A stretch of 51,016 nt of DNA, from the NCBI GenBank assembly GCA_903847405.1, contig CAINDP010000216.1:1-51016 (forward strand), in the 5' to 3' direction. Below the pieces are notes generated by a model. The model was not told the origin of the DNA. It was given only the letters and a program-made list of their open reading frames with translations, and ran no database searches. Both the position numbers and the translations under genes were made by a program. Source of the stretch: an uncultured Myxococcales bacterium. Its GTDB lineage: Bacteria; Myxococcota_A; UBA9042; DTJE01. Numbering within the stretch: position 1 is the first letter of the stretch; every line of letters starts with the position of its first letter. Below, one piece after another: positions 21,920-39,851 of this stretch.

Positions 21920-21945
21920 TCCGCGGTGCTCCTCCAACGCGGGGT

Positions 21946-21974
21946 AGTATCCGGTCTGCGCGGGCACCGGTCAA
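21946..21974 (-). promoter_or_regulatory. Putative promoter of the cytochrome operon
   Basis: On the minus strand: TTGACC (21974-21969), 17 bp, GATACT (21951-21946). The predicted leader is only about 20 nt and holds the GGAGGAGC site of the gene starting at 21919. Confidence 0.5.
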
Positions 21975-22068
21975 GGCAGGGCGGGCACCGGCAGCCGGGT
22001 GTCCCGGAGCCCCCGGGGTGCTCTTGCGTCCGGGCACAGACGGGGCGCGCCCGGGCACCCCCGCACAC

Positions 22069-22098
22069 TTGACACCTCGCGCCGGCACTCGTTACAGT
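22069..22098 (+). promoter_or_regulatory. Putative promoter of the radical SAM gene at 22122
   Basis: TTGACA (22069-22074), an 18-bp spacer, TACAGT (22093-22098), leaving a leader of under 20 nt before the ATG at 22122. Confidence 0.5.
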
Positions 22099-22121
22099 CC
22101 GCCGACGGCACGGTGGAAACC

Positions 22122-23588
22122 ATGGGCATCAAGGGCTTCGTGCGACGGGGCGAACAGTCGATCCAGCGGATCGCCCTCGTGTACCTTCCCGCGTCGGAAG
22201 ACTATCCGTTCTCGTTCATGCCGGAGCACTTCCAGAAGCGGCCCGGGCTGGGGTTGCGGTACCTCGTCGCGGCGCTGAAGGCGAACGGCTACCAGGTGGA
22301 CCTCTTCGACTGCCTGTTCGACTCGACCCGCGCCCGCGGCCTGGCCGGGGAACTGAACGCCGGCCGGTACGACCTGATCGGGTTCAGCGCGACGCACGCC
22401 TCGATCGGGCGCGTCGGCAGCGTGGTTTCGGGACTGGATCGCGCGTTCTACGCGGGCCGCCTGATCGTGGGGGGGCCGGCGTCCTCGCAACTGGACCAGG
22501 TGTTCGCCGCCGGTGCGGACGTTGCGGTGATCGGCGAGGCCGACGAAACGATCGTGTCGCTGGTCCGGGCCTACGAGGGTCACACCGGGTTCGACGAGGT
22601 CCGGGGCATCGCCTTCCACGACGAATCCGGCGCCCAGGTGGCGACGCCGCCGGCCACGATCGTCCCGCCCGACCAGATTCCCATGCCCGACTGGTCGGAC
22701 TTCGACCCGAAGTCCGGGGACCTGCTGGAAATCGCGATGCGGCGCCCCTACTACGTCGTGATGGCGTCCCGGGGCTGCCCCTTCCATTGCGCCTACTGCG
22801 TGACGTGGAAGTACTGGAACGGCAAGTACCGCGGACGTCCCGTCGAACAGGTCCTGGACGAGGTCGAGTTCCTGGTCCGCACCCAGGGCGCCCGGTACAT
22901 CCGCTTCCTGGACGACGTCTTCGCCCTGCGCATGGACTGGCTGGAAGCCTTCTGCGAGGGCCTCCACCAGCGGGATCTGCAGATCAAGTTCGGCATCACG
23001 CTGCACCCGTTGACCTTCGGCAAGGATCGCCAGCGGGCGTTCGAACTGCTGAAGGAAGCGGGCTGCGAAGTGGTGAACTACGGCGCGCAGTCGTCGGACC
23101 CGACCGTCCTGAAGACGATCGGGCGCTCCCCGGACGAGCCCGACGCCCTGCGGGAAGCCATCCCCCTGGCGAACTCCATGGGGTTCGCGACGGTCCTGAC
23201 GTACATCTTCGGCCTTCCCGGCGACACCCGGGAAACCATCCAGGCGAACGTCGACTTCGTGGCCTCGGTCCGCCCGACCCTCGTGGACTTCCATCCCCTG
23301 GACTACCTCCCCGGCAGCGTGCTGGTCGATTCGATGCCGGTCGAGGGCCGCAGCACCCTGACCCCGGCCGAACTGTCGGACCTGTGTCGCGGGGCGTTCG
23401 TGCAGTACTACGGGCGGCGCGGCGGCGCCTTCAGGGCGGCCTGGTTCATCCTGCGGAACAACCCCGTGTGGCTGGCCTACGCGTCCCGGACGGCCGTGGA
23501 CCTCATGGGCCTGGCGACGCGGCGCGCGGCATCGAAACTGGTCGCAAGGCCTCGGGGTTCCGGGAAGGAACCGGACGCCCGCGCCTGA
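22122..23588 (+). CDS. B12-binding-domain radical SAM protein
   Basis: The 488-aa protein has an N-terminal cobalamin-type Rossmann domain (YLVAALKANGYQVDLFDC, LIVGGPASSQL, VIGEADET) and then the radical SAM motif CPFHCAYC (Cys 219, 223, 226). FLDDVFA, NYGAQSS and IFGLPGDTRETI blocks follow, and the C-terminal part is helical and basic. There is no visible DxHxxG cobalamin motif. ATG 22122 is chosen because it sits just downstream of a promoter-like sequence; the site GGTGG is weak. It is a single-gene unit. Its 3' end overlaps the convergent radical SAM gene by 86 bp. The substrate is unknown. Confidence 0.85.
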   Translation: MGIKGFVRRGEQSIQRIALVYLPASEDYPFSFMPEHFQKRPGLGLRYLVAALKANGYQVDLFDCLFDSTRARGLAGELNAGRYDLIGFSATHASIGRVGSVVSGLDRAFYAGRLIVGGPASSQLDQVFAAGADVAVIGEADETIVSLVRAYEGHTGFDEVRGIAFHDESGAQVATPPATIVPPDQIPMPDWSDFDPKSGDLLEIAMRRPYYVVMASRGCPFHCAYCVTWKYWNGKYRGRPVEQVLDEVEFLVRTQGARYIRFLDDVFALRMDWLEAFCEGLHQRDLQIKFGITLHPLTFGKDRQRAFELLKEAGCEVVNYGAQSSDPTVLKTIGRSPDEPDALREAIPLANSMGFATVLTYIFGLPGDTRETIQANVDFVASVRPTLVDFHPLDYLPGSVLVDSMPVEGRSTLTPAELSDLCRGAFVQYYGRRGGAFRAAWFILRNNPVWLAYASRTAVDLMGLATRRAASKLVARPRGSGKEPDARA

Positions 23589-25029
23589 GCCGGCCCGCCC
23601 CGACCATCGATCGCAGCCCGCCCAGCAGCATCTGCCATGCCGTCACCAGCAGCACCAGCGGCCGGACCATCCGCAGGGCCGACAGCCAGCGGCTGGGCCT
23701 GCGATAGAAGCGCCAGTAGGCGATCCGCTGGAAGCGATCCAGTTCCGCCCGCGGCACGCGGATCAACTCCAGCGCCGCCCCGGTGTGCTTGTCGAAGTCG
23801 TCGGGATCCTCGCTGAGCAGGCGCAGGCCCCCCAGCCCCCGTCGGGCCATCCGCAGGACCTCCGTCCCCGGGAAGGGGGCCAGGCGCGCGAATCCGGCCA
23901 TGTCCGCGTTCACCTTCAGCGAATGTTCGATCGTCCGGGCCAGGGATTCCGGCGTTTCCCCGGGCAGCCCCAGGATGAAGTTGGTGTCCGTCAGCAGGCC
24001 GGCCTCGCGCGCCACGCGGACCGCCTGGATCCCCTGTTCCAGGGTCGTCTGCTTGTGCATCCGGTCCAGCATCCCGGCGTCGCCGGACTCGATGCCCAGC
24101 GACACGACACGGCAGCCGGCGCGGCGCAGGGCGACCGCGACTTCGGGGGTCACCTGGTCCACCCGGCTCTGGCACGACCACCGCACGCGACGGTCCAGCC
24201 CCTCCCGGAGGAGGGCGTCGCAGAACTCCAGGACATGGTTGCGGTCCGCCAGGAACGATTCGTTCAGGATCACGAACTCGCGGATCCCCAGGACGTTCAC
24301 GTCGTGGCGCAGTTCCTCCAGGACGTTGGGGATCGATCGCAGGCGCTGCGTCGTTCCCGTCCCGCGGAAGCAGAACGAGCACCGGAAGGCGCAGCCCCGG
24401 CCGGTCGCCAGGGGCACGGCACGGCGGGCGCGATCCGTGACGTGGTAGACACCCGAGTAGCGGTCCAGATCCACCAGGTCCCACGCCGGGAACCCGATGG
24501 CGTCCAGCTCCTCGATTTCGGGGCGCGGCGGCGCCAGGACCACCCTCCCCTCCCGGCGCCCGCAGACGCCGGGGATCGCGGTCACGTCCGCGTCCGGCCC
24601 CCCCCGATGGTAGGCCTCCAGCAGGTCCGCGAACGTCCGTTCCCCCTCGGCGACCACGGCCGCGTCCAGGGACGGGTATGCGTCCAGGGTCTCGACGGGC
24701 ACCGCGGTCGCGTGGGTTCCCCCGACGATCACCCGGATCTCCGGCCGATCGGCCTTCAACCGGGTCGCGACGCGGGACACCATCTTGACGCTTTGCGTGT
24801 ACGCGGTGAACGCCACCACGTCCGGACGGAACGCCCGCAACCGCTCCAGCAGGTCCGCCTCGGTCATGCGCTCCGCCGCGCAGTCGACGGCCAGGAGGTC
24901 GGTCGCCGAACGCTGCACGTTTCCGGCCACATACGCCAGGCCCAGGTGCGGGATCGATCCACGCCCGGCCCCCCGGGGACCGTCCCGGAGGATCGAAGGT
25001 GCAACGAGGGCAAGCCTCGATCGCCGCAT
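23503..25029 (-). CDS. B12-binding-domain radical SAM protein
   Basis: The 508-aa protein starts MRRSRLALVAPSILRDG. The N-terminal domain has VGGTHATAVP and GERTFADLL, and the Fe-S motif is CAFRCSFC (Cys 213, 217, 220). Later blocks are SLGIESGDAGML, FILGLPGETPESL and APFPGTEV. The tail has WRFYRRPSRW followed by a hydrophobic stretch (PLVLLVTAWQMLLGGL) that may touch the membrane, as in BchE-like enzymes. ATG 25029 is chosen from several in-frame starts because the promoter at 25054-25083 lies just upstream of it. It is divergent from the gene at 25186. Confidence 0.85.
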   Translation of the reverse strand: MRRSRLALVAPSILRDGPRGAGRGSIPHLGLAYVAGNVQRSATDLLAVDCAAERMTEADLLERLRAFRPDVVAFTAYTQSVKMVSRVATRLKADRPEIRVIVGGTHATAVPVETLDAYPSLDAAVVAEGERTFADLLEAYHRGGPDADVTAIPGVCGRREGRVVLAPPRPEIEELDAIGFPAWDLVDLDRYSGVYHVTDRARRAVPLATGRGCAFRCSFCFRGTGTTQRLRSIPNVLEELRHDVNVLGIREFVILNESFLADRNHVLEFCDALLREGLDRRVRWSCQSRVDQVTPEVAVALRRAGCRVVSLGIESGDAGMLDRMHKQTTLEQGIQAVRVAREAGLLTDTNFILGLPGETPESLARTIEHSLKVNADMAGFARLAPFPGTEVLRMARRGLGGLRLLSEDPDDFDKHTGAALELIRVPRAELDRFQRIAYWRFYRRPSRWLSALRMVRPLVLLVTAWQMLLGGLRSMVGAGRLRRGRPVPSRNPEALRPVSMPRAASPGP

Positions 25030-25053
25030 GCTGGTTCCGCCTGTTAGGCGGCG

Positions 25054-25083
25054 ATGATAGGACTTCGCGACAGCCTCGGTCAA
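25054..25083 (-). promoter_or_regulatory. Promoter of the radical SAM gene at 25029
   Basis: On the minus strand: TTGACC (25083-25078), 18 bp, TATCAT (25059-25054). This is one of the best sigma70-like matches in the window, with about 18 nt of leader. Confidence 0.6.
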
Positions 25084-25105
25084 CTGCGCGTTTCCGCGCC
25101 ATTGC

Positions 25106-25134
25106 TTGACCCGATCGGGCCGATCCTGGATCAT
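25106..25134 (+). promoter_or_regulatory. Putative promoter of the radical SAM gene at 25186
   Basis: TTGACC (25106-25111), 17 bp, GATCAT (25129-25134). It sits 22 bp from the divergent -35 at 25078-25083, so the two promoters are back to back and could share control. Confidence 0.45.
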
Positions 25135-25185
25135 GCCCTGCGGTTTTTGCCGTCCCTGCCCGCGAGGGCTTCAGGAGGTCCGGGC

Positions 25186-26646
25186 ATGCGCATCGCCTTC
25201 GTCCAGGACTCGGGGATGAACGAATCCGCCGCGCTCCTGGTCCTGTCGGGCCTGCTGAAGCTGGGGGGGCACACGACCCGGCTGTTCATCGAACACGACG
25301 AACGCGATATGTTCGGCGCCCTGCGCCGGTTCGACCCGGGCCTGGTCCTGATCGCGATCGACATCGGCGGCCACCACTGGGGCCTGGGCATGGCGTCCCG
25401 GCTGGCCCGGGACATCCGCGCGCCCCTGGTGGTCGTGGGCACGTACCCGACGCTGGAACTGGACGAGGTGCTGGCCCGGCCCGAGTTCCGGTTCGTCATC
25501 CCGGGCGAATGCGACGTGGCGGTGCCCGCCCTGGTGGACGCCCTGGCCGCGGGCAGCCGCGACCTGGCCGCAGTCCCCGGCCTGCACTGGCGCGACGTCG
25601 ACGGCCAGTGGCAGCGCAACCCGTCCCCGGGGTACCTGGACGATCTGGACGTCCTGCCCGCACCGGACGTGTCCCTCTTCGAGCCCTACCCCTACCTCCT
25701 GCAATTCGGGGTGCGCCGGTTCGTGTCGGGACGCGGGTGCGCGAACCGTTGCAGCTACTGCTACAACAACGAACTCAGCCGACGCACGCGTTCCCTGGGC
25801 CGGTACGTCCGGCGCAAGAGCGCGACGCCGTTCGTGGCCGAAATCGCGGACTCGCTGGCGAAGTACCCCGCCCACCACGTGCACATGGGCGACGATCTGT
25901 TCACCCACGATCCCGCCTGGCTGCGCGAATTCGCCCCGTTGTATCGCCGCACCGTCGGCGTGCCGTTCACCTGCAACGCCACGCCCATGAGCCTGACGTC
26001 CGAAACCATTTCCCTGCTGGCCCAGGCGGGGTGTCACGGCGTCGCCGTCGGCGTCGAGTCCGGCGATCAGGTCCTCCGGGAACGCATCCTGGAGCGGCCT
26101 GCCCGCGACGAGGATCTGCGCGCCGGCTGCGAACGGGTCCGCAAGTCCGGCATCCTGCTGGCCGCGTTCAACCTGATCGCCATGCCCGGGGAAACCTACG
26201 AACAGGCCCTGTCGACCGTCCAGTTGAACCGACAACTGGGCGTGCAGGTGCCCCGCATCAACTTCACGATCCCGCTGCGGGGCACGCGCATGACCGAGCG
26301 CGCCATCGAGGAGGGATTCTTCACGCGGCAGGCCCAGGCCGATCTGGAGCGGGAGGTCGCCGCCGGTCGCTTCAAGCTGGGCCCCTGCTTCCTCAGCCCG
26401 GACAACGCGCAGTTCGAGCGCCTGTTCCGGGTCTTCCAGTTTGCGATCATGATGGGGCTCGGCGACGCGCAGGTCCGCCAACTGGTCCGCAGCGACCTGG
26501 CCGTCAAGGCGATCCCGTTCCGGATGCTGATGCTCTACATGGAGCGCACGTTCTTCCGGATCCAGTGGGTGCCGGGGCTGCAGATGTACCTGCACGCGGG
26601 CCATCCGCTGGGACGCACCAAGAACTTCAACAACTTCATTCCCTGA
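25186..26646 (+). CDS. B12-binding-domain radical SAM protein
   Basis: The 486-aa protein begins MRIAFVQDSGMNESAAL. It has a cobalamin-type N-terminal domain (LGGHTTRLFIEHDE, VVVGTYPTLELDEVL, VIPGECD) and the radical SAM motif CANRCSYC (Cys 185, 189, 192), followed by YNN. HMGDDLFTHD, VAVGVESGDQVLRERI and NLIAMPGETYEQAL come next. The tail has amphipathic helices. A strong AGGAGG site lies 7 bp before ATG 25186, which fixes the start within a longer open frame. It converges on the gene ending at 26684 across a 37-bp gap. The substrate is unknown; relatives include HpnP/BchE-type and methyltransferase enzymes. Confidence 0.87.
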   Translation: MRIAFVQDSGMNESAALLVLSGLLKLGGHTTRLFIEHDERDMFGALRRFDPGLVLIAIDIGGHHWGLGMASRLARDIRAPLVVVGTYPTLELDEVLARPEFRFVIPGECDVAVPALVDALAAGSRDLAAVPGLHWRDVDGQWQRNPSPGYLDDLDVLPAPDVSLFEPYPYLLQFGVRRFVSGRGCANRCSYCYNNELSRRTRSLGRYVRRKSATPFVAEIADSLAKYPAHHVHMGDDLFTHDPAWLREFAPLYRRTVGVPFTCNATPMSLTSETISLLAQAGCHGVAVGVESGDQVLRERILERPARDEDLRAGCERVRKSGILLAAFNLIAMPGETYEQALSTVQLNRQLGVQVPRINFTIPLRGTRMTERAIEEGFFTRQAQADLEREVAAGRFKLGPCFLSPDNAQFERLFRVFQFAIMMGLGDAQVRQLVRSDLAVKAIPFRMLMLYMERTFFRIQWVPGLQMYLHAGHPLGRTKNFNNFIP

Positions 26647-26683: not shown

Positions 26684-28117
26684 TCAGCGACCGCGCAGCG
26701 CGACCGAGGCGATGGACACCAGCGCGTTCGCCATGTCCGACACGGACAGCGTCCGCAACTGGAACAACTGGCGCGCGATCATCTTGGGCCGCAGGTAGAA
26801 CGACAGGTGGGCCTTGGCCTGCAGCGCGATGATTTCCGCCGACGTGAACCCGTCGGGGATGTAGACCGGCGGCAGATCCTTCGTCGGGTACGTCGTGTAG
26901 CGCTTCCAGTCCTCGGGCGCCAGGATCTTCCCCTCGGCCAGCAACTGGTCGTACAGGGGCGTCCCGGGGTACGGCGCGAACACCGTGTACTTGGCGAAGT
27001 CCACGTCCAGCGTCCGGGCGAACTTGATGTTGCGCTCCATCGACGCCCGGGTGGCGCCGGGGACGCCCAGCATGAAGAAGCCGACCGTTTCCACGCCGGC
27101 CTTCTTGCAGATTTCGACGGCCTTGACGGCCTGATCCAGGCTGGCGCCCTTGCGCATCGTTTCCAGCTCGACCTCGTCGCCGGCCTCGAACCCGAACATC
27201 AGGCGGCGCAGGCCCGATTCCCGCAGGGCCTGGACCAGTTCCAGGTCGATCAGGTCGGTCCGCGTTTCCGTGATCCACACCTGCTTCTTGTGCAGGCCCC
27301 TGCGGATCAGTTCCGCCGCGTAGTCCAGGCCTTCCTTCTTCCCGAACGGGAAGATCGCGTCCACGAACGACGGCTGCTTGAAGCCGAACCGTTCGTACCC
27401 CTGCTCGCACTCGTCCGCGATGTTCGCGGCCGAACGCTTCCGGCGCACGTTGCCCATGACGCGCAGGCTGCAGTAGGAGCAGTTGTACGGGCAGCCGCGG
27501 GATCCCAGGACCAGGATCCCGGGGTCCTGGACCCGGGCGAAGCTGAGGATCTTGTACCGGTGCATCGGGAACAGGTGCCACGCGGGGAACGCCAGGTCGT
27601 CCAGGTTGCCCACCCGCGAACGGGGGGGCGTGGTGACGACCGCGCCCTCGCTCAGGAATGCCAGTCCGGCGATCGTGTCCAGGGACGGGGTGCCCTTGTC
27701 CAGGGCCTCGACCAGTTCCGGGAAGCTGAGCTCGCCTTCGCCCATCACGATGATGTCGATCAGGCCCTGGCGCAGCAGCGAGTCCTTGAACACCTCGGCG
27801 TGGATGTTCCCGGCCACGATCTTCGCCTTCGGCAGGTGCTTGCGCACCGACGCGATGACCCGCGGAGCGCCGGCCATGGTGGCCGTCACCAGGGACAGGC
27901 CCACGACGTCCGGCTGGACCCGCTTCAGGCAGGTTTCCAGTTCCGCCTCGTTGCCGGAGGCCAGGGAGTCGTCATAGATCTCGACGGGAATCCCGGCCCT
28001 CTCCAGCGCCGCGGCCAGGTACGCCAGCGTGATCGGAGGCATCGGCGCCAGCACGCGCTGGTAGTCGCCGCCCAGTTCGTCCAGGGATCGGTAGATGTTG
28101 ATGAGGAGGACTTTCAC
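26684..28117 (-). CDS. B12-binding-domain radical SAM protein
   Basis: The 477-aa protein starts at a GTG (MKVLLINIYRSLDELGG), with GGAG 8-9 bp upstream; the open frame continues to 28228 without a better start. The N-terminal domain has PPITLAYLAAALERAG, VAGNIHAEVF and VMGEGELSFPEL. The Fe-S motif is CPYNCSYC (Cys 209, 213, 216). FGFEAGDEVELE, FFMLGVPGATRASME and APYPGTPLYDQL follow, and the tail contains FYLRPKMIARQL. It lies 64 bp downstream of the radical SAM gene at 28182-29708 and shares its transcript. The two may act in succession on one substrate. Confidence 0.87.
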   Translation of the reverse strand: MKVLLINIYRSLDELGGDYQRVLAPMPPITLAYLAAALERAGIPVEIYDDSLASGNEAELETCLKRVQPDVVGLSLVTATMAGAPRVIASVRKHLPKAKIVAGNIHAEVFKDSLLRQGLIDIIVMGEGELSFPELVEALDKGTPSLDTIAGLAFLSEGAVVTTPPRSRVGNLDDLAFPAWHLFPMHRYKILSFARVQDPGILVLGSRGCPYNCSYCSLRVMGNVRRKRSAANIADECEQGYERFGFKQPSFVDAIFPFGKKEGLDYAAELIRRGLHKKQVWITETRTDLIDLELVQALRESGLRRLMFGFEAGDEVELETMRKGASLDQAVKAVEICKKAGVETVGFFMLGVPGATRASMERNIKFARTLDVDFAKYTVFAPYPGTPLYDQLLAEGKILAPEDWKRYTTYPTKDLPPVYIPDGFTSAEIIALQAKAHLSFYLRPKMIARQLFQLRTLSVSDMANALVSIASVALRGR

Positions 28118-28181
28118 GCGTCGTCTCCACGCCGCCGCCGGGGCGTCCGGCCAGGGCCGGCCCGGGAGCGACACCACGGAA

Positions 28182-29708
28182 TCAACTGTCGTACCACTCG
28201 GGGGTGACCAGCCGGGTGTAGTTGTCATGCCGGAACGGGTTGACGAACCGGCGCGCGGTGTCCGCGAAAATGCGGGCCGAGACCAGCACCCACCACAGGT
28301 ACATGTTCCGCCGGTAGGCGCTGCCGGACGTCAGGCCCTTGGCCAGCCACTTGACGCCGACGTACCGCCGGCTGAGCTCGATGATGGCCAGGTCGATTTC
28401 CTCCCGGGTCATCTTGTCGGAACTCATCACGGGCGTGGACATGTCGAAATAGTCGAAATCCTCGACCTCCAGCCACTTCTTTTCGTTCGCCTCCCGCCAG
28501 AAATCGGTTCCGGGGAAGGGTGTGGCAGCATGGAACGCGGGATAGTCGGCGTCAATCAACCGGGCGAAGGCCAGTTGATTTTCGATGGTTTCGGGCGTTT
28601 CGTTCCGTGTCCCCAGGATGAAGGTTGCCTGCCGGAACACGTGGGGGTACTTGGTCTTCAGCAGGCGGAACGTTTCCACCGACTGGTTCTTCGTATAGAA
28701 CTTCTTGCTGAAGTCCTTCAGGTCGGCGTCCTCGGCCCGCTCGACCCCGATGCACAGATGGGCCAGCCCGCTCTTGACCAGTTTCTCGAACACGCCCAGC
28801 CGCTCGTCCCGCAGGACCAGGTCGGCGCGCATGAACGCGAACCACTGGATGGGCCATCCCTTCTTGATCAGGGCCGTGGCGAACTCGTCGTTCCATTCCG
28901 AGTCCAGGTTGAACGTGGGGTCCACGAACACCAGTCCCCGGCGCCCGTACTGCTTGTGCAGCACCTCGATTTCCGCCAGGGTGTGCTCCACCGACTTGGT
29001 GCGCCAGCGGGGGGTCAGGGTTTCCTGGCCCGTGGCGGTCACCTTCCGCTCGCCCATCTGGGTCCACCAGACGCAGAACGAGCAGCGGGCCCCGCAGCCG
29101 CGGCTGTGGTGGACGGTCACGCCGCCGGAATTGAACAGCAGCTTGGCGCGGCCGTAGCGGTCCATCGGCATCAGGTCGAAGGCGGGGATCGGCAGCGTGT
29201 CCAGGTCGGCGATCAACGCCCGCGGCGGCGTCAGGACGACCTTACCGCCGCTGTAGTACGCGATGCCCTCGACGTCCTCGGTCGGCGTTCCGGCATCCAG
29301 GGCCCTCAGCAGTTCCCGGAACGTGATTTCGCCTTCGCCCCGGACGATGAAGTCGATCGGGTGCGACCGCAGGTACCGGTCCGGCAGGTTCGTGAAGTGC
29401 GCGCCGCCCAGGACCGTGACGATCTTCGGATCGATCCGCTTGACCAGTTCCACCAGCTTCAGGACTTCGCCGGCGTACAAGGCGTGGTTTTCCCCCGCCC
29501 CGACCACGTCCGGCGCGAACTCCCGAATCCGGCGTTCCAGCGTCTTCCAGCCGCATTTTTCGGGCAGGCAATCGATGACCGCAACCCGCATCCCGGCCTG
29601 CCGCAGGACTGCGGCCAGGTTGGGCAGGGACTGGGGCATCATGAAGTTATCCTGCTCGTTCATGTAGGGCCACAGGAGCCTGGGGGGAGCAACGAGCAGG
29701 ACGTTCAT
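28182..29708 (-). CDS. B12-binding-domain radical SAM protein
   Basis: The 508-aa protein begins MNVLLVAPPRLLWPYMNEQD. The N-terminal domain has LPNLAAVLRQAGMRVAVIDC, VLGGAHFTNLPDRYL and VRGEGEITFREL. The Fe-S motif is CGARCSFC (Cys 205, 209, 212), unusual in lacking the Pro after the first Cys. FVDPTFNLDSEWN, CIGVERAEDADL and TPFPGTDFW follow. The acidic residue of the usual GVESG block is kept but the Ser-Gly is not (GVERA). An AGGAAAG site precedes the ATG. It is the first large gene of a two-gene operon whose leader encodes the X-Pro microORF at 29838-29903. Confidence 0.87.
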   Translation of the reverse strand: MNVLLVAPPRLLWPYMNEQDNFMMPQSLPNLAAVLRQAGMRVAVIDCLPEKCGWKTLERRIREFAPDVVGAGENHALYAGEVLKLVELVKRIDPKIVTVLGGAHFTNLPDRYLRSHPIDFIVRGEGEITFRELLRALDAGTPTEDVEGIAYYSGGKVVLTPPRALIADLDTLPIPAFDLMPMDRYGRAKLLFNSGGVTVHHSRGCGARCSFCVWWTQMGERKVTATGQETLTPRWRTKSVEHTLAEIEVLHKQYGRRGLVFVDPTFNLDSEWNDEFATALIKKGWPIQWFAFMRADLVLRDERLGVFEKLVKSGLAHLCIGVERAEDADLKDFSKKFYTKNQSVETFRLLKTKYPHVFRQATFILGTRNETPETIENQLAFARLIDADYPAFHAATPFPGTDFWREANEKKWLEVEDFDYFDMSTPVMSSDKMTREEIDLAIIELSRRYVGVKWLAKGLTSGSAYRRNMYLWWVLVSARIFADTARRFVNPFRHDNYTRLVTPEWYDS

Positions 29709-29763
29709 AACCCGATCTTTCCTGGGCTGCGAATCAAGGACGCAAGGTAACGCCTTTCCAGAT

Positions 29764-29775
29764 GATATTAATATC
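29764..29775. promoter_or_regulatory. Perfect 12-bp palindrome, possible operator
   Basis: GATATTAATATC is its own reverse complement and stands out in GC-rich surroundings. It lies in the leader of the radical SAM operon, about 56 bp before the ATG at 29708. It could be a repressor site or simply AT-rich chance. Confidence 0.35.
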
Positions 29776-29837
29776 CCGGAAAAACGCTACCCGCGTCAGA
29801 AGGACCCGAAGAAGGACAGCCCCAAGAACTGTTCGAA

Positions 29838-29903
29838 CTAGGGACGGGGCTTCGGAACGGGCCGGGGAGAGGGCTTCGGAGCCGGACGCCAAGAGTGCAT
29901 CAT
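29838..29903 (-). CDS. X-Pro repeat leader peptide, 21 aa (putative)
   Basis: A 22-codon ORF (MMHSW, then eight X-Pro dipeptides with X = R, A, K, S, R, V, K, R, then TAG) begins about 19 nt after the predicted transcription start. It has a GGAGG site 6-7 nt before its first ATG. Pro occurs at every second position and the other positions are mostly basic, so the peptide is strongly cationic. It may be a regulatory leader, since ribosomes slow on such runs, with the downstream radical SAM gene as target. It could also be a secreted or modified peptide. The strong Shine-Dalgarno and the placement support translation; no homology is claimed. Confidence 0.45.
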   Translation of the reverse strand: MMHSWRPAPKPSPRPVPKPRP

Positions 29904-29928
29904 GATTAGCCTCCAAGAAAGACGTCCG

Positions 29929-29958
29929 ATAGTAACGAAGTTCCGAACGGCCTGTCAA
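29929..29958 (-). promoter_or_regulatory. Promoter of the 29708-26684 radical SAM operon
   Basis: On the minus strand: TTGACA (29958-29953), 18 bp, TACTAT (29934-29929). The predicted start is near 29922, giving a leader of about 214 nt before the ATG at 29708. Confidence 0.6.
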
Positions 29959-30068
29959 GCCGTTTCGCGGCACGTTTTTTCACCAGCCCCAAATTATTCC
30001 CGCAGTTCCCAATCTGGACTGCTATCTTCCGGGTTGAAAACACGGGCGCTGTTCCAGTCCGCTTCGGG

Positions 30069-30074
30069 TAGAAT
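30069..30074 (+). promoter_or_regulatory. Possible -10 box (TAGAAT) of the cytochrome gene
   Basis: TAGAAT matches the -10 consensus at five of six positions and lies 54 bp before the ATG at 30128. No good -35 was found 16-18 bp upstream. Confidence 0.25.
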
Positions 30075-30127
30075 CACCGAAACGTCGCCGAATACAGAAC
30101 CGCGGGCTGGGCCGACCGGGGATCGTG

Positions 30128-32488
30128 ATGGTGCTAACCGCAGGACCACAAAGGACTTCTGTCTTCGCAGCCTGGCTCCACGGCGGGATTCTGGCGCTGG
30201 TCGCCTGGTTGACGTTCAGCCCGATGGCGTCCCATCTGTGCACATCGCTGGTGGATCCCGGGATCGGCCGCGCACTGGGACACTGGGGGCTGGGCAAGTT
30301 CTTCGGCTTCGCGCTGTTCCTCTACTATCCGCTGCACATCTTCGCGTCCGAAGGGTGGTGTCGCACCTCGGCATGGAAGGTCGTGCGCCCTCTCCTTCCG
30401 TTCCTTCTCCTCATCCTGGCGTTCGCCCCCCTCGTCATCGGTCCGCCGGAGGGTCGCTTCGTCGTCGCGCCGCTGGTGGCCGCGGCCACGATCATCCACT
30501 GGATCCGGGTTCCGAAAAGACGGGGACTCCTGGTGATCCGGATCTGGATCCTGGCGATCGTGGCGATCGATCTGGCCTGCACGACCAGGGGGGACCAGTC
30601 GCGCCTCTTCATCTTCGCGCTGGCCCAGCTTTCGCTTGGCGTCCTGGTGATCGACCTCCGGCGTGCCCGGAAATTTCCCGACGAACGCCCCTTCCGGTCG
30701 GGAAGGCTGGCGATCTTCGCCGCCATCATGCTGGCCATCCCCGCCTGGATGCTGGACGCGGGAGCCTCGGGGAACCGGGACTACGCCACCAGCGTCGGCC
30801 CCATCGCCCACACGATCACGGGGTACCTGTTCGTCGCGGTCCTGATGATCCACGTGATCGTCGCGATCCATCGAAAGCAGGCGACTTCGGGCTTCCGGCG
30901 AGCGGCGACCATCACGGCCTTCCTGGCGACCCTCGCCGCCCTGGCGACGGCCGAAGGAATCCGCGTGGCGGGAATCGCACGGAGCATCCGGGAGGCGGCC
31001 GCGGCGGTCGAGGCCGTCGGAAAGGTCCCGCAACCGGTATCGATCCACTCCGCGCTGGAAGCCTACCCCGCGCCCCTCCCGGGCCTGGGCGCCACCTGGT
31101 TCGTCCAGTCGACCCGCAACTGCAACAACTCGACGTGCCACGAGGCGGTCGTCACCCAGCACAACCATTCTGCCCACGGCCGCTCGATGACGAACGACAC
31201 GTTCCGGCTGCAGCTTGCCCAGTTCATCGCCGAAAAGGGGCGCGCGGCCGCCGACCATTGCCTGGCCTGCCATGCGCCCCTGGGAGTCGCCGCGTTCCCC
31301 GGCGACGGCTCGAAGGGACCTCCGATCGACCCGCTGACGACGACCGAGGAAGCCTTCACACTGGGCGTGGGCTGCGTCGTCTGCCATCGCGCGACCGCCA
31401 CCACGGACGAGCGCAGCGTGGGCAACGCGTCGCTGGCGGTGCGCCCGCTGTGGCTGGATCCCGAATGGCCGCGAATGCAGGCCCTGGGCAGGGAAACGGA
31501 GGTTGCAACCGTCCTGCTGGACAACCAGGCCCACCGGGCGCGCTGGCGAATCGAAAAGCGGGAGTGGCGTTCGATCTGCGGGTCCTGCCACTTCGTGACG
31601 CTCCCCGCATCGCTGGCGGTCGACGGCGCCGAGCATGTCGTGGCGGATCACTACCGCTCGTTCCTGGACTCCGAATTCGCCCAGGTCGGCGTCGAGTGCG
31701 CCAGTTGCCACCAGCAGCCGTTCATCAGCGCGATCCACGGCTACCCCTCGAAGGGCCACAACTACCTGGGATCGGGCTCGACCCTCCCCTACGACGACCT
31801 CCAGGAAGATGCGAAGTTCCGGGAAGTGTCCCTGGGATACCTGTCCGGCCTGGGCGACGTTTCGCTGCGCATCGTCCCCGAGGATCTTCCCCCGTGCATC
31901 CAGGATCTGGGAACCTACTCGGATGCGACGGTCCTGCAGATGGAACGCGGTCCGACGGAGCCGTTCGACGGAACGAACGGCGGCGTCAGCCGACGGGACA
32001 TGCTGACCACGACCCTGTCCGTCCTTTCCGTCGGGCCCGGGAAGGCGAGCCTCCTGGTGACGACCACCAACGGATGCATCGGTCATGGCTTCCCGTCGGG
32101 CGGGGGCGTCAAGGGGTACCTGGCCGCCGAGGCCCTCGACGACACCGGGGCGGTCATTGGCCGGTTCGGGGGCCTGGACAAGGACGGGTACCCGGTGGCG
32201 GGCCCGACGAACCTCGGTTCGAAGTCCGTCGATCGGGACGGCCTGCCGATCCTCGACCGCAGGTACTGGCGCGCCGCGAAGCAGGTCTACAGGCGCCTCA
32301 TCCAGCCCGGCGAAACGCAGGAGGACATCATCGAGGTCCCCCTGGACGCCGGGACCATCCCCCGGGAGTTCGCGGTCCGCTGGAACTACCTGAGGCCGGA
32401 ATACTTCCGGGCCAAGGAACAGGGGGGCGGCTACGAGGTCGCACCGGTCCCGATCGGCCAGGCCGCCTGCGACGCACCGGGGTTCTGA
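30128..32488 (+). CDS. Membrane-anchored five-haem cytochrome c
   Basis: The 786-aa protein has about eight N-terminal hydrophobic segments with several histidines in or near them. A c-type haem domain follows, with CX4CH at about 332-338 and CXXCH sites near 378, 416, 484 and 524. The C-terminal beta domain has TTNGCIGHGFPSGGG, equivalent to NTGLGHAFPAG in the cytochrome at 19811. The two share order and spacing and are paralogues. The other cytochrome's first site is CX5CH, so the first haem site is non-canonical in both. Start: ATG 30128, though an adjacent GTG at 30125 is equally possible. It converges on the Ala-Pro lipoprotein gene. Confidence 0.83.
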   Translation: MVLTAGPQRTSVFAAWLHGGILALVAWLTFSPMASHLCTSLVDPGIGRALGHWGLGKFFGFALFLYYPLHIFASEGWCRTSAWKVVRPLLPFLLLILAFAPLVIGPPEGRFVVAPLVAAATIIHWIRVPKRRGLLVIRIWILAIVAIDLACTTRGDQSRLFIFALAQLSLGVLVIDLRRARKFPDERPFRSGRLAIFAAIMLAIPAWMLDAGASGNRDYATSVGPIAHTITGYLFVAVLMIHVIVAIHRKQATSGFRRAATITAFLATLAALATAEGIRVAGIARSIREAAAAVEAVGKVPQPVSIHSALEAYPAPLPGLGATWFVQSTRNCNNSTCHEAVVTQHNHSAHGRSMTNDTFRLQLAQFIAEKGRAAADHCLACHAPLGVAAFPGDGSKGPPIDPLTTTEEAFTLGVGCVVCHRATATTDERSVGNASLAVRPLWLDPEWPRMQALGRETEVATVLLDNQAHRARWRIEKREWRSICGSCHFVTLPASLAVDGAEHVVADHYRSFLDSEFAQVGVECASCHQQPFISAIHGYPSKGHNYLGSGSTLPYDDLQEDAKFREVSLGYLSGLGDVSLRIVPEDLPPCIQDLGTYSDATVLQMERGPTEPFDGTNGGVSRRDMLTTTLSVLSVGPGKASLLVTTTNGCIGHGFPSGGGVKGYLAAEALDDTGAVIGRFGGLDKDGYPVAGPTNLGSKSVDRDGLPILDRRYWRAAKQVYRRLIQPGETQEDIIEVPLDAGTIPREFAVRWNYLRPEYFRAKEQGGGYEVAPVPIGQAACDAPGF

Positions 32489-34756: not shown

Positions 34757-37700
34757 CTACGGACCGACCACGACGCAGCCCTCGCCCTCGCGGCACGCCT
34801 GGTTCGGCGGGCACCACAGCGCGATGTTGTTGCACTGCAGGTTCGTCGGCAGGTAGTTGGGGTTGCAGTGGTCGAACGTGCACGTCAGGCCGTCGTCGCA
34901 GTCGGCGTTCGAGGCGCACCCGTTGCAGCCGGGCACCACCGTGTAGACACACCCGATCACCGGATCGCAGGTATCGGTCGTGCAGGGATCGTGGTCGTAG
35001 CACTGACCCAGTTCGTGCTTGCAATCGCCGGTGGTGATGTCCTGGAAGTCCCGGGTGCACAGGTTGCCGTCGTCGCAGGAACCCGCGTGCAGGCAGTTGT
35101 TGTTCGAGCAGGTGTCGCGGGTGGCCGGATTGCCGTCGTTGCAGTCCCCGTCGACGAAGCAGCACCCGGGAACCTCGTAGACGATGCAGGTGCCGGTGGT
35201 CGCGTCCGTGCACTGGCCGCGGTGGCACACGTCCGTGTCGGGGCAGACCTTGTTCGGATACACGCACCCGTGGGTCACCAGGTCGCACTTCCCGACCTGG
35301 CAGGCGGACGGGGGTTCGGTGCAGTTCGAGTCCACCGTACAGGCGCAGGTCCCCGTGGTGACGGGAATCCGCTCGCAGGCGCCCGTCGTGGCATTGCAGA
35401 CCGCGTTGGTGCATCCGACGTTCAGCCCGCAGTCCTTCGCCAGGAACTGGCAACTGGGCGGGTTGGTGGTGCCGTCGCACAGGTCCACGGTGCAGGGATT
35501 CCCGTCGTTGCACCGGTTGACCGGATCGGCCAGACAGCCGCCGATGAGGGGCTCGCATCGATCGGTCGTGCACGGGTCGGTGTCGCTGCACACCATCGGC
35601 GTCATCACGCAGGCCCCGGTGGCCTCGTCGCAGTAGCCGTCCGCGCAGGGCTGGTCGTTGCAGAGCAGCCAGGTGGACCCGCACTTGGGCTTGGTCGGGT
35701 CCGTCGGATCGGGAAGGCACGTGTCCACCGTGCACTTGATGCCGTCGTCGCACGTCAGTGGCGTGTGCACGCAGCCCACGCCGGGCTGGCAACTGTCCAC
35801 GGTACAGGCATCGGGATCGTCGCAGACGACGGACTCGTGGACGCAGCCCAGGGTCGCGGACGCACAGTGGTCCTGGGTGCAGGCATCCCCGTCGTCGCAG
35901 ACCAGGATGTTGACGCAGTTTCCGTCCAGCGGGTTGCAGGAATCGACCGTGCACAGGTTCTCGTCATTACAGGGGTCCCGGTCGGAGTAGCACATGCCGG
36001 ACTGCGGGTCGCACTGGTCCCACGTGCATTCGTCGCCGTCGTCGCAGGTCACCTGGTGATCGCAGACGCCCTGGGGCCGGATGCACATGTCGGTCGTGCA
36101 GCGGATGCCGTCGTCGCAGTTCATCGGCGTGTGCACGCAGTTGCCCGAGGCGTTGCAGGAATCCAGGGTGCACGAGTCGTCGTCATTGCACTCCGTCGGG
36201 GGGTGCAGGCACTCGCCCGTCACCGGATCGCAGTAGTCGCCGGTGCAGGGGTCGCCGTCGTCCCAGCAGGGCTTCTGGACGTTCGAGCAGCCCGTCAGCG
36301 GGTTGCAGGTGTCCACGGTGCAGGCGGTACCGTCGTCGCAGGACAGGGGCGTGTTGCTGCAGCCCGTCAGGGGATTGCAACTGTCCACGGTGCAGGCGTC
36401 CTTGTCGTTGCAGTTGGCCACGTGGACGCACCCGGGAATGGTCGGGTCGCAGGAATCGATCGAGCACGGGTCGGCATCCCTGCAGTCCAGCGGAACGAAC
36501 TCGCACGCCCCGGTCACGGGGTTGCATCGATCCACCGTGCAGGGGTCCTGGTCGTTGCAGGCGTCCTCGTTCACGCACGTGCCTGCCGGCCCCAGGCAGC
36601 GGTCCTGGGTGCACACCACGCCGTCATCGCAGCTTCGGACGACGTGCAGGCACACGCCGGTCGTCGGATTGCAGGAGTCCGTCGTACAGGGGTCGCCGTC
36701 GTTGCAGGACGTCAGGGTGAACACGCAGTTCCCGGTGACGGAATTGCAGCTTCCCGTGCTGCACTTGTCCGCCGAAACGCAGTCCGCCGGACCCGCGCAC
36801 GGATTGCAGTTGCCGCGCGGCACGTGCCGGCAGCCCGCAGTCGGATCGCACGAATCGTCGGTGCAGGCGTCCCCGTCGTCGCAGGGAACCGGCGCGAACA
36901 GGCAACCCGTCGTCGAGTTGCATGAATCCGTCGTGCACGCGTCCAGGTCGTTGCACGTCCGGGTCCGGTGGACGCACCCGGCGGTCGTCGCGGGATCGCA
37001 GTCGTCCACGGTGCAGGCATTCCCGTCGTTGCAGTTGAAGGGCTGGTGCAGGCACAGCCCCGTCACGCCGCTGCACGAATCGACCGTGCACTTGTTGCCG
37101 TCGTCGCAGTTCACGCCCTGGTTCACGCACGCACCCGTCACGGGGTTGCAGGCGTCGACGGTGCAGGCGTTGCCGTCATGGCACGAATGGGGAGCGCCGG
37201 CGGTGCAGAGGCCCGTCTGGGAGTCGCAGGAATCGTCGGTGCAGGGGTTGTGGTCGTCGCAGATCACCTGCGGATGGCGGCACAGCCCGTCCCCCGGGTT
37301 GCAGTAGTCGGCGGTGCAGAGGCTGCCGTCGGTGCAGTCCACCAGGGGGTGCAGACAGTTGCCCGTGGCCACTTCGCACTTGTCGGTCGTGCACAGATCC
37401 CCGTCCGAACAGTCCTTCGCGAACCGCTCCACGGTGCCGCTCACCGGGTCGCACACGATGCGCACGCACAGGTCGCCGCTGGAGGAAACCTTCGGGGTGT
37501 TCGTGCACTTGCCCGTGGCCGCGACGCAAGCGTCCACGGTGCAGGCGTCGCCGTCGTCGCATTCGGTCGTGGCCGCGTGCTGGCACGCGCCGGTCGCAAC
37601 TTCGCACGTGTCCGTGGTGCACCCGTTCTGGTCGTTGCAGGTCCGCGTGACGTGGCTGCACTCGCCGGTCGCGGCGGTGCAACTGTCCGTCGTGCAGGGA

Positions 37701-39790
37701 TTGCTGTCGTCGCATTCCTTCCACAGGTACTGGCAGGTCTTGGTCACGGCATCGCAGGAATCCACCGAGCAGAGGTTCGAATCGCCGCACGTCGCAACGG
37801 TCACGCAGGGCTTCCCGCACCCGGTCCCGTAGGACGGGGTGTGCTGGCAGCTTTCGATCGGGTCGCAGGAATCGGTCGTGCAGGGGTTGCCGTCGTCGCA
37901 GGAAATCGTGACGTGGATGCCGCCGCCCGTGACCGGGTCGCACGAATCGGTCGTGCAGACGCTGGCGTCGTCGTAGGTCCGCATCACGTTGATGCAGGCC
38001 CCGGTCAACGTGTCGCAGGTGTCGTCCGAGCACTTCTTGCCGTCGTTGCAGTCCTTCGCCACGTGCTGGCACACCCCGGTCGTCGGGGCGCAGGTGTCAG
38101 CGGTGCAGGCGTTGTTGTCGTCGCACGCCTGGCGGGCGTGGGCACATCCCAGAACCTTGTCGCACGTGTCGATCGTGCACGGGTCCTCGTCGTCGCAGGT
38201 CTTTTCGGTGGCCAGGCAGGTCCCGGACGCGGGGGCGCACTGGGATTCCCAGCAGGCGTCGGCAGGCGTGCAGACCACCGGCGTGTGGACGCAGAGGCCG
38301 GTGTTCGGATCGCACCGGTCGGCCGTGCAGGCCAGCCCGTCGTCGCAGTTCATGGCGACGTGCAGGCACCGGCCGGTCGCGGGATCGCATGAATCGACGG
38401 TGCACCGCAGCCCGTCCGAGCAGGGCTGCTTGAGGTAGTTGCAGGTGCCCGTCCCCAGGTCGCAGGTTTCCGCCGTGCAGGCGTTCTTGTCGTCGCAGGC
38501 CGCGTTGTTCGAGCACACGCACGAGGCCAGACGGTCATGCCGGCATCCCACCAGCGGGTCGCAGGAGTCGTCCGTACAGGGATCGGTGTCCCCGCACGAA
38601 GCCGGCGCGTGCAGGCAGCCCTGGGCGGCATCGCAGGTGTCCACGGTGCAGGGGTTGCCGTCGTCGCACGACATCTGGGGATGCAGGCAGGTCCCCGTGG
38701 CGGGGTCGCAGGCGTCGAACGTGCAGTCGTTGAGGTCGTCGCAGTTCACCGGGGTCAGCACGCACGCACCCGTGGACGGATTGCAGGAGTCCATCGTGCA
38801 CTTGCTGCCGTCCGTGCAATTCTTCACCGGGTGGGTGCATCCGCCGACCGCCGGGTCGCAGAGGTCACCCGTGCACGGATTCCCGTCATCGCATTCGGTC
38901 ACGACGTGGAAGCACTGGCCGCCCAGGCACGAGTCCTGGGTGCAGGCATTGCTGTCGTCGCAGGACAGCGCGCTCGTGGTGCAGTTGCCGGTCGCCGGAT
39001 TGCAGACTTCGATCGTGCAGGCATCGCCGTCGTTGCAGACGCGCTCGAGCCCCCGGCAAAGGCCGGACAGCGGGTCGCAGGAGTCCTGGGTGCACGGGTT
39101 GTCGTCGTTGCAGTCCGTGGCCACGTGGCTGCAGCCGAAGCCGACCTGGCAGGCGTCGATCGTGCAGAGGTCCCCGTCGCTGCAGTTCTTGACGGACCGC
39201 CGGCACCGCGACGCAGCCTTGTCGCAACTGACGACCTGGCATTCGTTCGCCGTCAGGATGGAGCAATCCGCGTCCGACGCGCAGGCGACGCACTCGGGCC
39301 GGTCGCCGGGATCCAGCACCGCGCGGCACCCGAAGGTCGGGTCGCAGGAATCCGTCGTGCAGGCGTCGCCGTCATCGCAGACCAGGGGCTCGAACCCGCA
39401 GATCCCTTCCACGCAGACGCGCTGCAGGCAGGCATCCGTGGACCCGGGACAGTCCGCCGCGCGGAAGCACAGCGGGACATCCGGAGCGTCCGCGTCCACG
39501 CCCTGGTCCACCGGGACGTCCGCGTCCGGCGTGCCCGGGTCGCCCGGGTCCGATTCGTCGGTGCCCGGGTCCATGTCGCCCGGATCGTTGTCGCGCCCAA
39601 TCTCGCCGGGACCCTGGTCCTCGGGAAGCAACTCCACGTCGACGATGTCCTCGACGTCCGCGTCCTCTTCACCGAAGTCAGGAGTGGTATTGCCTCCGCC
39701 GCCGCAGCCCAGCGACAGGGCGAACAGCATGGCCACAAGGGTCGGCGCGGCAGCATGGACTTCGAGGCGACCCAGAATACGCAGAGACAT
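34757..39790 (-). CDS. Giant lipoprotein of about 55 Dictyostelium CTDC-type Cys repeats
   Basis: The 1677-aa protein has a signal ending in FALSLGC followed by GGGG (lipobox-like) and a very acidic Asp-rich linker (about residues 30-100). About 55 repeats of 23-26 residues of the type CDDGNPCTVDSCDPxTGxCxH then run to the C-terminus. This matches the slime-mould CTDC repeat, each with four Cys and an acidic, possibly Ca-binding loop. It should form a long, disulphide-rich rod on the cell surface. One repeat (coded near 37900-37975) has lost two cysteines (YDD..., GGG). GGAGGGAGGGG lies just before ATG 39790. The signal suggests surface anchoring; an adhesin or matrix role is inferred. Confidence 0.88.
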   Translation of the reverse strand: MSLRILGRLEVHAAAPTLVAMLFALSLGCGGGGNTTPDFGEEDADVEDIVDVELLPEDQGPGEIGRDNDPGDMDPGTDESDPGDPGTPDADVPVDQGVDADAPDVPLCFRAADCPGSTDACLQRVCVEGICGFEPLVCDDGDACTTDSCDPTFGCRAVLDPGDRPECVACASDADCSILTANECQVVSCDKAASRCRRSVKNCSDGDLCTIDACQVGFGCSHVATDCNDDNPCTQDSCDPLSGLCRGLERVCNDGDACTIEVCNPATGNCTTSALSCDDSNACTQDSCLGGQCFHVVTECDDGNPCTGDLCDPAVGGCTHPVKNCTDGSKCTMDSCNPSTGACVLTPVNCDDLNDCTFDACDPATGTCLHPQMSCDDGNPCTVDTCDAAQGCLHAPASCGDTDPCTDDSCDPLVGCRHDRLASCVCSNNAACDDKNACTAETCDLGTGTCNYLKQPCSDGLRCTVDSCDPATGRCLHVAMNCDDGLACTADRCDPNTGLCVHTPVVCTPADACWESQCAPASGTCLATEKTCDDEDPCTIDTCDKVLGCAHARQACDDNNACTADTCAPTTGVCQHVAKDCNDGKKCSDDTCDTLTGACINVMRTYDDASVCTTDSCDPVTGGGIHVTISCDDGNPCTTDSCDPIESCQHTPSYGTGCGKPCVTVATCGDSNLCSVDSCDAVTKTCQYLWKECDDSNPCTTDSCTAATGECSHVTRTCNDQNGCTTDTCEVATGACQHAATTECDDGDACTVDACVAATGKCTNTPKVSSSGDLCVRIVCDPVSGTVERFAKDCSDGDLCTTDKCEVATGNCLHPLVDCTDGSLCTADYCNPGDGLCRHPQVICDDHNPCTDDSCDSQTGLCTAGAPHSCHDGNACTVDACNPVTGACVNQGVNCDDGNKCTVDSCSGVTGLCLHQPFNCNDGNACTVDDCDPATTAGCVHRTRTCNDLDACTTDSCNSTTGCLFAPVPCDDGDACTDDSCDPTAGCRHVPRGNCNPCAGPADCVSADKCSTGSCNSVTGNCVFTLTSCNDGDPCTTDSCNPTTGVCLHVVRSCDDGVVCTQDRCLGPAGTCVNEDACNDQDPCTVDRCNPVTGACEFVPLDCRDADPCSIDSCDPTIPGCVHVANCNDKDACTVDSCNPLTGCSNTPLSCDDGTACTVDTCNPLTGCSNVQKPCWDDGDPCTGDYCDPVTGECLHPPTECNDDDSCTLDSCNASGNCVHTPMNCDDGIRCTTDMCIRPQGVCDHQVTCDDGDECTWDQCDPQSGMCYSDRDPCNDENLCTVDSCNPLDGNCVNILVCDDGDACTQDHCASATLGCVHESVVCDDPDACTVDSCQPGVGCVHTPLTCDDGIKCTVDTCLPDPTDPTKPKCGSTWLLCNDQPCADGYCDEATGACVMTPMVCSDTDPCTTDRCEPLIGGCLADPVNRCNDGNPCTVDLCDGTTNPPSCQFLAKDCGLNVGCTNAVCNATTGACERIPVTTGTCACTVDSNCTEPPSACQVGKCDLVTHGCVYPNKVCPDTDVCHRGQCTDATTGTCIVYEVPGCCFVDGDCNDGNPATRDTCSNNNCLHAGSCDDGNLCTRDFQDITTGDCKHELGQCYDHDPCTTDTCDPVIGCVYTVVPGCNGCASNADCDDGLTCTFDHCNPNYLPTNLQCNNIALWCPPNQACREGEGCVVVGP

Positions 39791-39851
39791 AACCCCTCCC
39801 TCCACCTTCCGGGCTCTTCGGCAGAGAACCCGACTCAATTCGACAGACGAC

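Follow-up and report, generated by a model that had tools for sequence, protein, structure and literature searches.

A conserved alternating X-Pro micro-peptide encoded with tandem B12-binding radical SAM enzymes in Myxococcota, a candidate for a very short RiPP-type precursor

We analysed a stretch of 51,016 nucleotides (the window) from an uncultured Myxococcales bacterium, whose genome is called G000 here. On its minus strand, read from 29903 to 29838, a micro-ORF that we call P encodes 21 residues with eight X-Pro dipeptides, in five of which Pro is preceded by R or K (codons ATG ATG CAC TCT TGG CGT CCG GCT CCG AAG CCC TCT CCC CGG CCC GTT CCG AAG CCC CGT CCC TAG). A preliminary description had noted a 21-residue ORF with eight X-Pro dipeptides without giving a strand, and the minus-strand translation bears this out; the plus-strand reading of the same positions gives LGTGLRNGPGRGLRSRTPRVHH, with no X-Pro, and was rejected. 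The promoter and ribosome site reported there (Table 1) likewise hold. The promoter TTGACA-18-TACTAT, which matches the consensus at 10 of 12 positions (0.1 such sites expected in shuffles), is the sole sigma-70-like site in 29600-30150, GGAGG stands 6 nt ahead of the first ATG, and 129 nt (about 130 in that description) separate the stop codon TAG from the ATG of the radical SAM gene A at 29708. It is possible that P starts at its second ATG (29900), in which case all five known P peptides would begin M-x-[NSH]-W, provided that the peptide of genome G002 starts at its second codon, TTG. An Rfam search of the window gave no match.

Table 1. Features of the P locus in the window.
Feature	Position	Strand	Basis
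P, alternating X-Pro peptide MMHSWRPAPKPSPRPVPKPRP*	29838..29903	-	translation; homologues in four other genomes, pN/pS 0.13-0.34
Promoter TTGACA-18-TACTAT	29929..29958	-	consensus scan, 10/12
Ribosome-binding site GGAGG	29910..29914	-	sequence
A, B12-binding radical SAM enzyme, CGARCSFC motif	28182..29708	-	Pfam PF02310 + PF04055; clade 100/99, only with P
B, B12-binding radical SAM enzyme, in tandem with A in 5/5 P genomes	26684..28228	-	Pfam PF02310 + PF04055
C, radical SAM enzyme; orthologue directly after P in G036	25054..26646	+	Pfam PF04055
D, B12-binding radical SAM enzyme, in the G000 and G001 clusters	23503..25134	-	Pfam PF02310 + PF04055
E, B12-binding radical SAM enzyme, confined to the three clusters of the window's genus	21999..23588	+	Pfam PF02310 + PF04055

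After P come A and B, and then C, D and E on alternating strands. Gene calls around the clusters are ORF heuristics; the real start of B is probably about 37 codons inside the called frame, and that of C about codon 45 (MRIAFVQDSG). The Pfam domains of A, its CxxxCxxC motif and the matching fold of its predicted model (mean pLDDT 79.9; closest by Foldseek to the B12-radical SAM enzymes TsrM, AprD4, CysS, OxsB and MgmA) mark it as a predicted B12-dependent radical SAM enzyme. Against the NCBIfam RiPP maturase families compared (TIGR03975, ApyD, others), whose curated cut-offs are 282-750 bits, the best scores of the enzymes were 39-147 bits, all below the cut-off. Next to the P clusters we recognised no conserved recognition domain, protease or exporter. 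G000 is rich in radical SAM enzymes, and 29 places in it match A at E below 0.001; a second copy of C, 85% identical, stands alone on another contig (C153; L130 11727-13199) with no P, A or B nearby. In G000, though not in the other clusters, the radical SAM group is flanked by two membrane proteins that resemble multihaem cytochromes in having several CxxCH motifs (30125-32488, plus strand, and 19811-21967, minus strand). Further along, at 34757-39838 on the minus strand, lies a gene for a 1693-residue cysteine-rich protein with many CDDGNPCTxDSCDP-like repeats.

We asked if P might be no gene at all but an X-Pro run arisen by chance in GC-rich DNA. Such runs are common in G000, where 148 overlapping places have CC at seven successive every-second-codon positions, and the periodicity alone thus proves little in a GC-rich genome. 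P is nevertheless more than chance, because it is conserved with selection on the protein sequence. Homologues occur in four other Myxococcota genomes: G001 (MTNWRPAPKPAPRPIPRPQPKP) and G002 (MLISWRPAPKPTPRPAPGPYPKP), of the same genus as the window (uncultured Myxococcales bins, contigs CAIOFV010000069.1 and CAIZWN010000076.1) and in both ahead of the A orthologue; G006 (MKHWRPAPKPRPRPSPSPKP), of the same family; and G036 (MENWRPNPKPSPRPAPKPGMPKPFA), of another family of the class. The peptides of these five myxobacterial genomes are 20-25 residues long and share the consensus M-x-[N/S/H]-W-R-P-x-P-K-P-x-P-R-P-x-P, in which W, R, K, R and every second Pro are fixed. The P genes of G001, G002 and G006 likewise have TTGACA upstream.

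In all 10 pairs of P genes, compared over 13 aligned codons, pN/pS was 0.13-0.34, with numerous synonymous changes and few replacements; the pair with the most synonymous changes, G002 and G006, has 11 of these against 4 replacements (Fisher p 8e-7, the lowest of the pairs; the pairs share branches, so that their p-values are not independent). When the observed number of substitutions was placed at random, WRPxPKPxPRPxP was kept in only 0-0.5% of trials per pair. The comparison proposed in the preliminary description, of whether the X-Pro pattern survives synonymous change in related genomes, was therefore positive, and the frameshifts or stops in homologous leaders that it had named as refuting evidence were absent from all four homologues. 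Judged from these comparisons, P is a real, conserved gene under purifying selection on its protein sequence, and the data strongly support its translation into a functional peptide; we consider a chance run, which the conservation contradicts, very improbable.

To see how far P extends, 379 genomes of the phylum were searched for WRPxPKPxPRP with both Arg codon families allowed. One match was found in each of the five P genomes and one in G293; the last was read as chance, its frame having no stop within the examined stretch. In the same 379 genomes, homologues of A with at least 62% identity occur in exactly the five P genomes (next best, 53%), and the five proteins form one clade among the A proteins compared. 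P and the A-B pair are thus encoded together in five of five genomes, all draft assemblies (G006 is 82% complete), and the motif search placed P in none of the 374 others. Most of the clusters have further radical SAM enzymes beside the tandem A-B: C is present in four of the five, and enzyme F in G001 (on another contig), G002 and G036. Since A of G036, a member of another family, is nearer in the tree to A of the window's genus than is A of the same-family G006, these sequences suggest that the cluster has moved between lineages. Beyond the phylum a narrower pattern was used (Arg as CGN, Ala after WRP), one that would miss the peptides of G006 and G036. Its matches in Caulobacter, Pseudomonas, Ramlibacter, Chromobacterium and a Proteobacteria bin were read as probable chance, their frames giving no fitting short ORF, and there was none in the viral contigs searched.

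The place of P relative to the enzyme genes bears on the first of three meanings offered in the preliminary description, a cis-acting leader in which ribosome pausing on Pro codons (sensing Pro-tRNA, EF-P or an antibiotic) would control the downstream radical SAM gene. Like attenuation and arrest leaders, P is a short ORF biased towards one amino acid ahead of an enzyme gene, and in the window it has the distance to A, the promoter, the good ribosome site and a strong hairpin between the two genes (z -4.9) that such a leader might have. The order P-A-B, however, is seen only in G000, G001 and G002 (in G002 P heads a single-strand series P-A-B-F-C-E, in which nothing else looks like a gene for a substrate). 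G036 has P about 90 nt ahead of C and not of A, and its F-A-B genes are a few kb away on the other strand; in G006 P, which has its own TTGACA promoter, is directly followed not by a gene on its own strand but by a convergent one that touches its stop, and A-B is found 4.3 kb on. Because it is ahead of A in three genomes, ahead of C in another and stand-alone in the fifth, P goes with the cluster as a whole and with no single gene downstream of it.

The gap between P and A is not conserved either: only short blocks of it align among the three close genomes, with no shared hairpin. On the minus strand of the window no terminator was found there. An unusual fold downstream of P was seen in G006 (z -3.4, the folded stretch overlapping an opposite-strand gene) as well as in G000, but in none of G001, G002 and G036. 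Moreover, Pro-Pro occurs in none of the five peptides, and residues other than Pro are conserved as strictly as Pro itself. The shifting position, the unaligned gap without a common hairpin, the scarcity of folds and the lack of Pro-Pro argue against attenuation or EF-P sensing and in favour of a gene product, and the pausing leader, which fits poorly, seems to us improbable. An attenuator was rejected, as the intergenic region is not conserved and no hairpin is shared. The hairpin of G000, long and imperfect, at 29738-29797 on the minus strand between P and A, has a sequence that occurs once in its genome and has no homologue in G001 or G002. In G036 two perfect inverted repeats (arms of 15 and 12 bp; L076 5863-5893 and 5811-5839), not seen in the other four genomes, lie directly upstream of the ribosome site of P.

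P is most simply a substrate of A-B, because it is small, conserved and found only with this clade of A and with the A-B pair. It is probably a very short RiPP-type precursor, of the size of PqqA, on which the B12-dependent radical SAM enzymes of the cluster act. Of the three meanings, a substrate for the radical SAM enzymes nearby fits best; that these enzymes act on P, by what chemistry and to what final product, we infer. The main rival is that P acts unmodified, as a cationic proline-rich peptide (an antimicrobial, a ligand of the ribosome tunnel or of a chaperone, a signal or a docking peptide that keeps the radical SAM enzymes in one complex), and that the enzymes act on another molecule. 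With 4-6 Arg/Lys and 8-9 Pro, P does resemble proline-rich antimicrobial peptides such as drosocin, apidaecin and Bac7, which are also short, cationic and rich in Arg/Lys-Pro; the separate transcription unit of P in G006, and the relatives of A (about 50% identity) that work without P, are compatible with this as well. Those peptides, however, are animal and secreted, whereas P is tied exclusively to one A clade and A-B, and neither a signal peptide nor an exporter was seen. P also lacks the Arg-hydrophobic C-terminus on which type II proline-rich antimicrobial peptides depend (PMC13233979). An unmodified peptide is, in our view, unlikely, if less so than the pausing leader.

A precursor of this kind would have parallels in known systems. 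PqqA averages 23 residues, and an argument from co-occurrence was earlier applied to mycofactocin (PMC3023750). PqqA/PqqE and MftA/MftC are like P in that a conserved peptide of about 20-30 residues is encoded beside radical SAM enzymes. Their enzymes, however, are SPASM-type and without a B12 domain, the peptides have no sequence resemblance to P, and the partner genes of those pathways were not seen here. Several B12-radical SAM enzymes together with a ribosomal peptide are found in the bottromycin and polytheonamide pathways, and in bottromycin such an enzyme methylates proline (PMC11285071). The precursors of both carry a leader or follower region, and their pathways include more maturation genes, in contrast to the 20-25-residue peptide and radical SAM genes only of the P cluster, where at most 3-4 residues precede the conserved WRP stretch and a separate leader was not seen. 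Very short leaders are known, and biarylitide precursors have 5 residues (PMC13417212); like P, these precursors, also present in myxobacteria, have genes small enough for gene finders to miss (PMC13417212), but they are modified by cytochrome P450, have an aromatic core and are unrelated to P in sequence. In our literature search no paper combined a proline-rich RiPP, radical SAM and cobalamin.

We suggest the following scheme. P would be transcribed from its own promoter, and its fixed Trp, Arg, Lys and Pro residues might be read directly by the enzymes, with no separate long leader. A and B, the enzyme minimum, would act on the side chains of Trp, Arg, Lys or Pro, followed by C, F, D or E in the clusters that have them (often C together with F, D or E); successive enzymes would C-methylate or otherwise modify carbons of these residues, and the product would be released by a route not encoded at the cluster. 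We put forward more tentatively, as a possibility a little short of even, that P represents a new RiPP class, an alternating X-Pro micro-precursor with no separate leader, whose proline-rich chain is decorated along its length by a set of B12-dependent radical SAM enzymes, two to five in number, to give a hypermethylated or otherwise remodelled product or cofactor. If so, the scaffold Trp-Arg-Pro-x-Pro-Lys-Pro-x-Pro-Arg-Pro would be unlike known RiPP precursors. Most of the many B12-radical SAM enzymes have no known substrate, and precursor genes of the size of P escape gene finders; the co-occurrence gives a defined enzyme pair, A and B, a concrete and cheaply synthesised candidate substrate, and the pairing is directly testable.

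Several observations count against the substrate reading: P is known from five genomes only, the enzymes score below the RiPP family cut-offs, the clusters gave no conserved recognition domain, protease or exporter, and relatives of the enzymes are not confined to clusters with P. Homologues of A with about 50% identity are widespread in Myxococcota without P, relatives of B (47-48%) and of C (34-39%) also occur without it, and no P-like peptides were found beside the A homologues of about 50% or the C homologues of 32-39% identity. The ancestral substrate of the A-, B- and C-type enzymes is therefore something other than P, which may be a later addition to them. The A homologues of about 50% identity often adjoin a class-I methyltransferase, as read from their sequences; at L162, L176, L160 and L154, loci of relatives in the phylum, a class-I SAM methyltransferase-like gene often precedes them, which suggests that Myxococcota have a distinct conserved pathway made up of these two genes.
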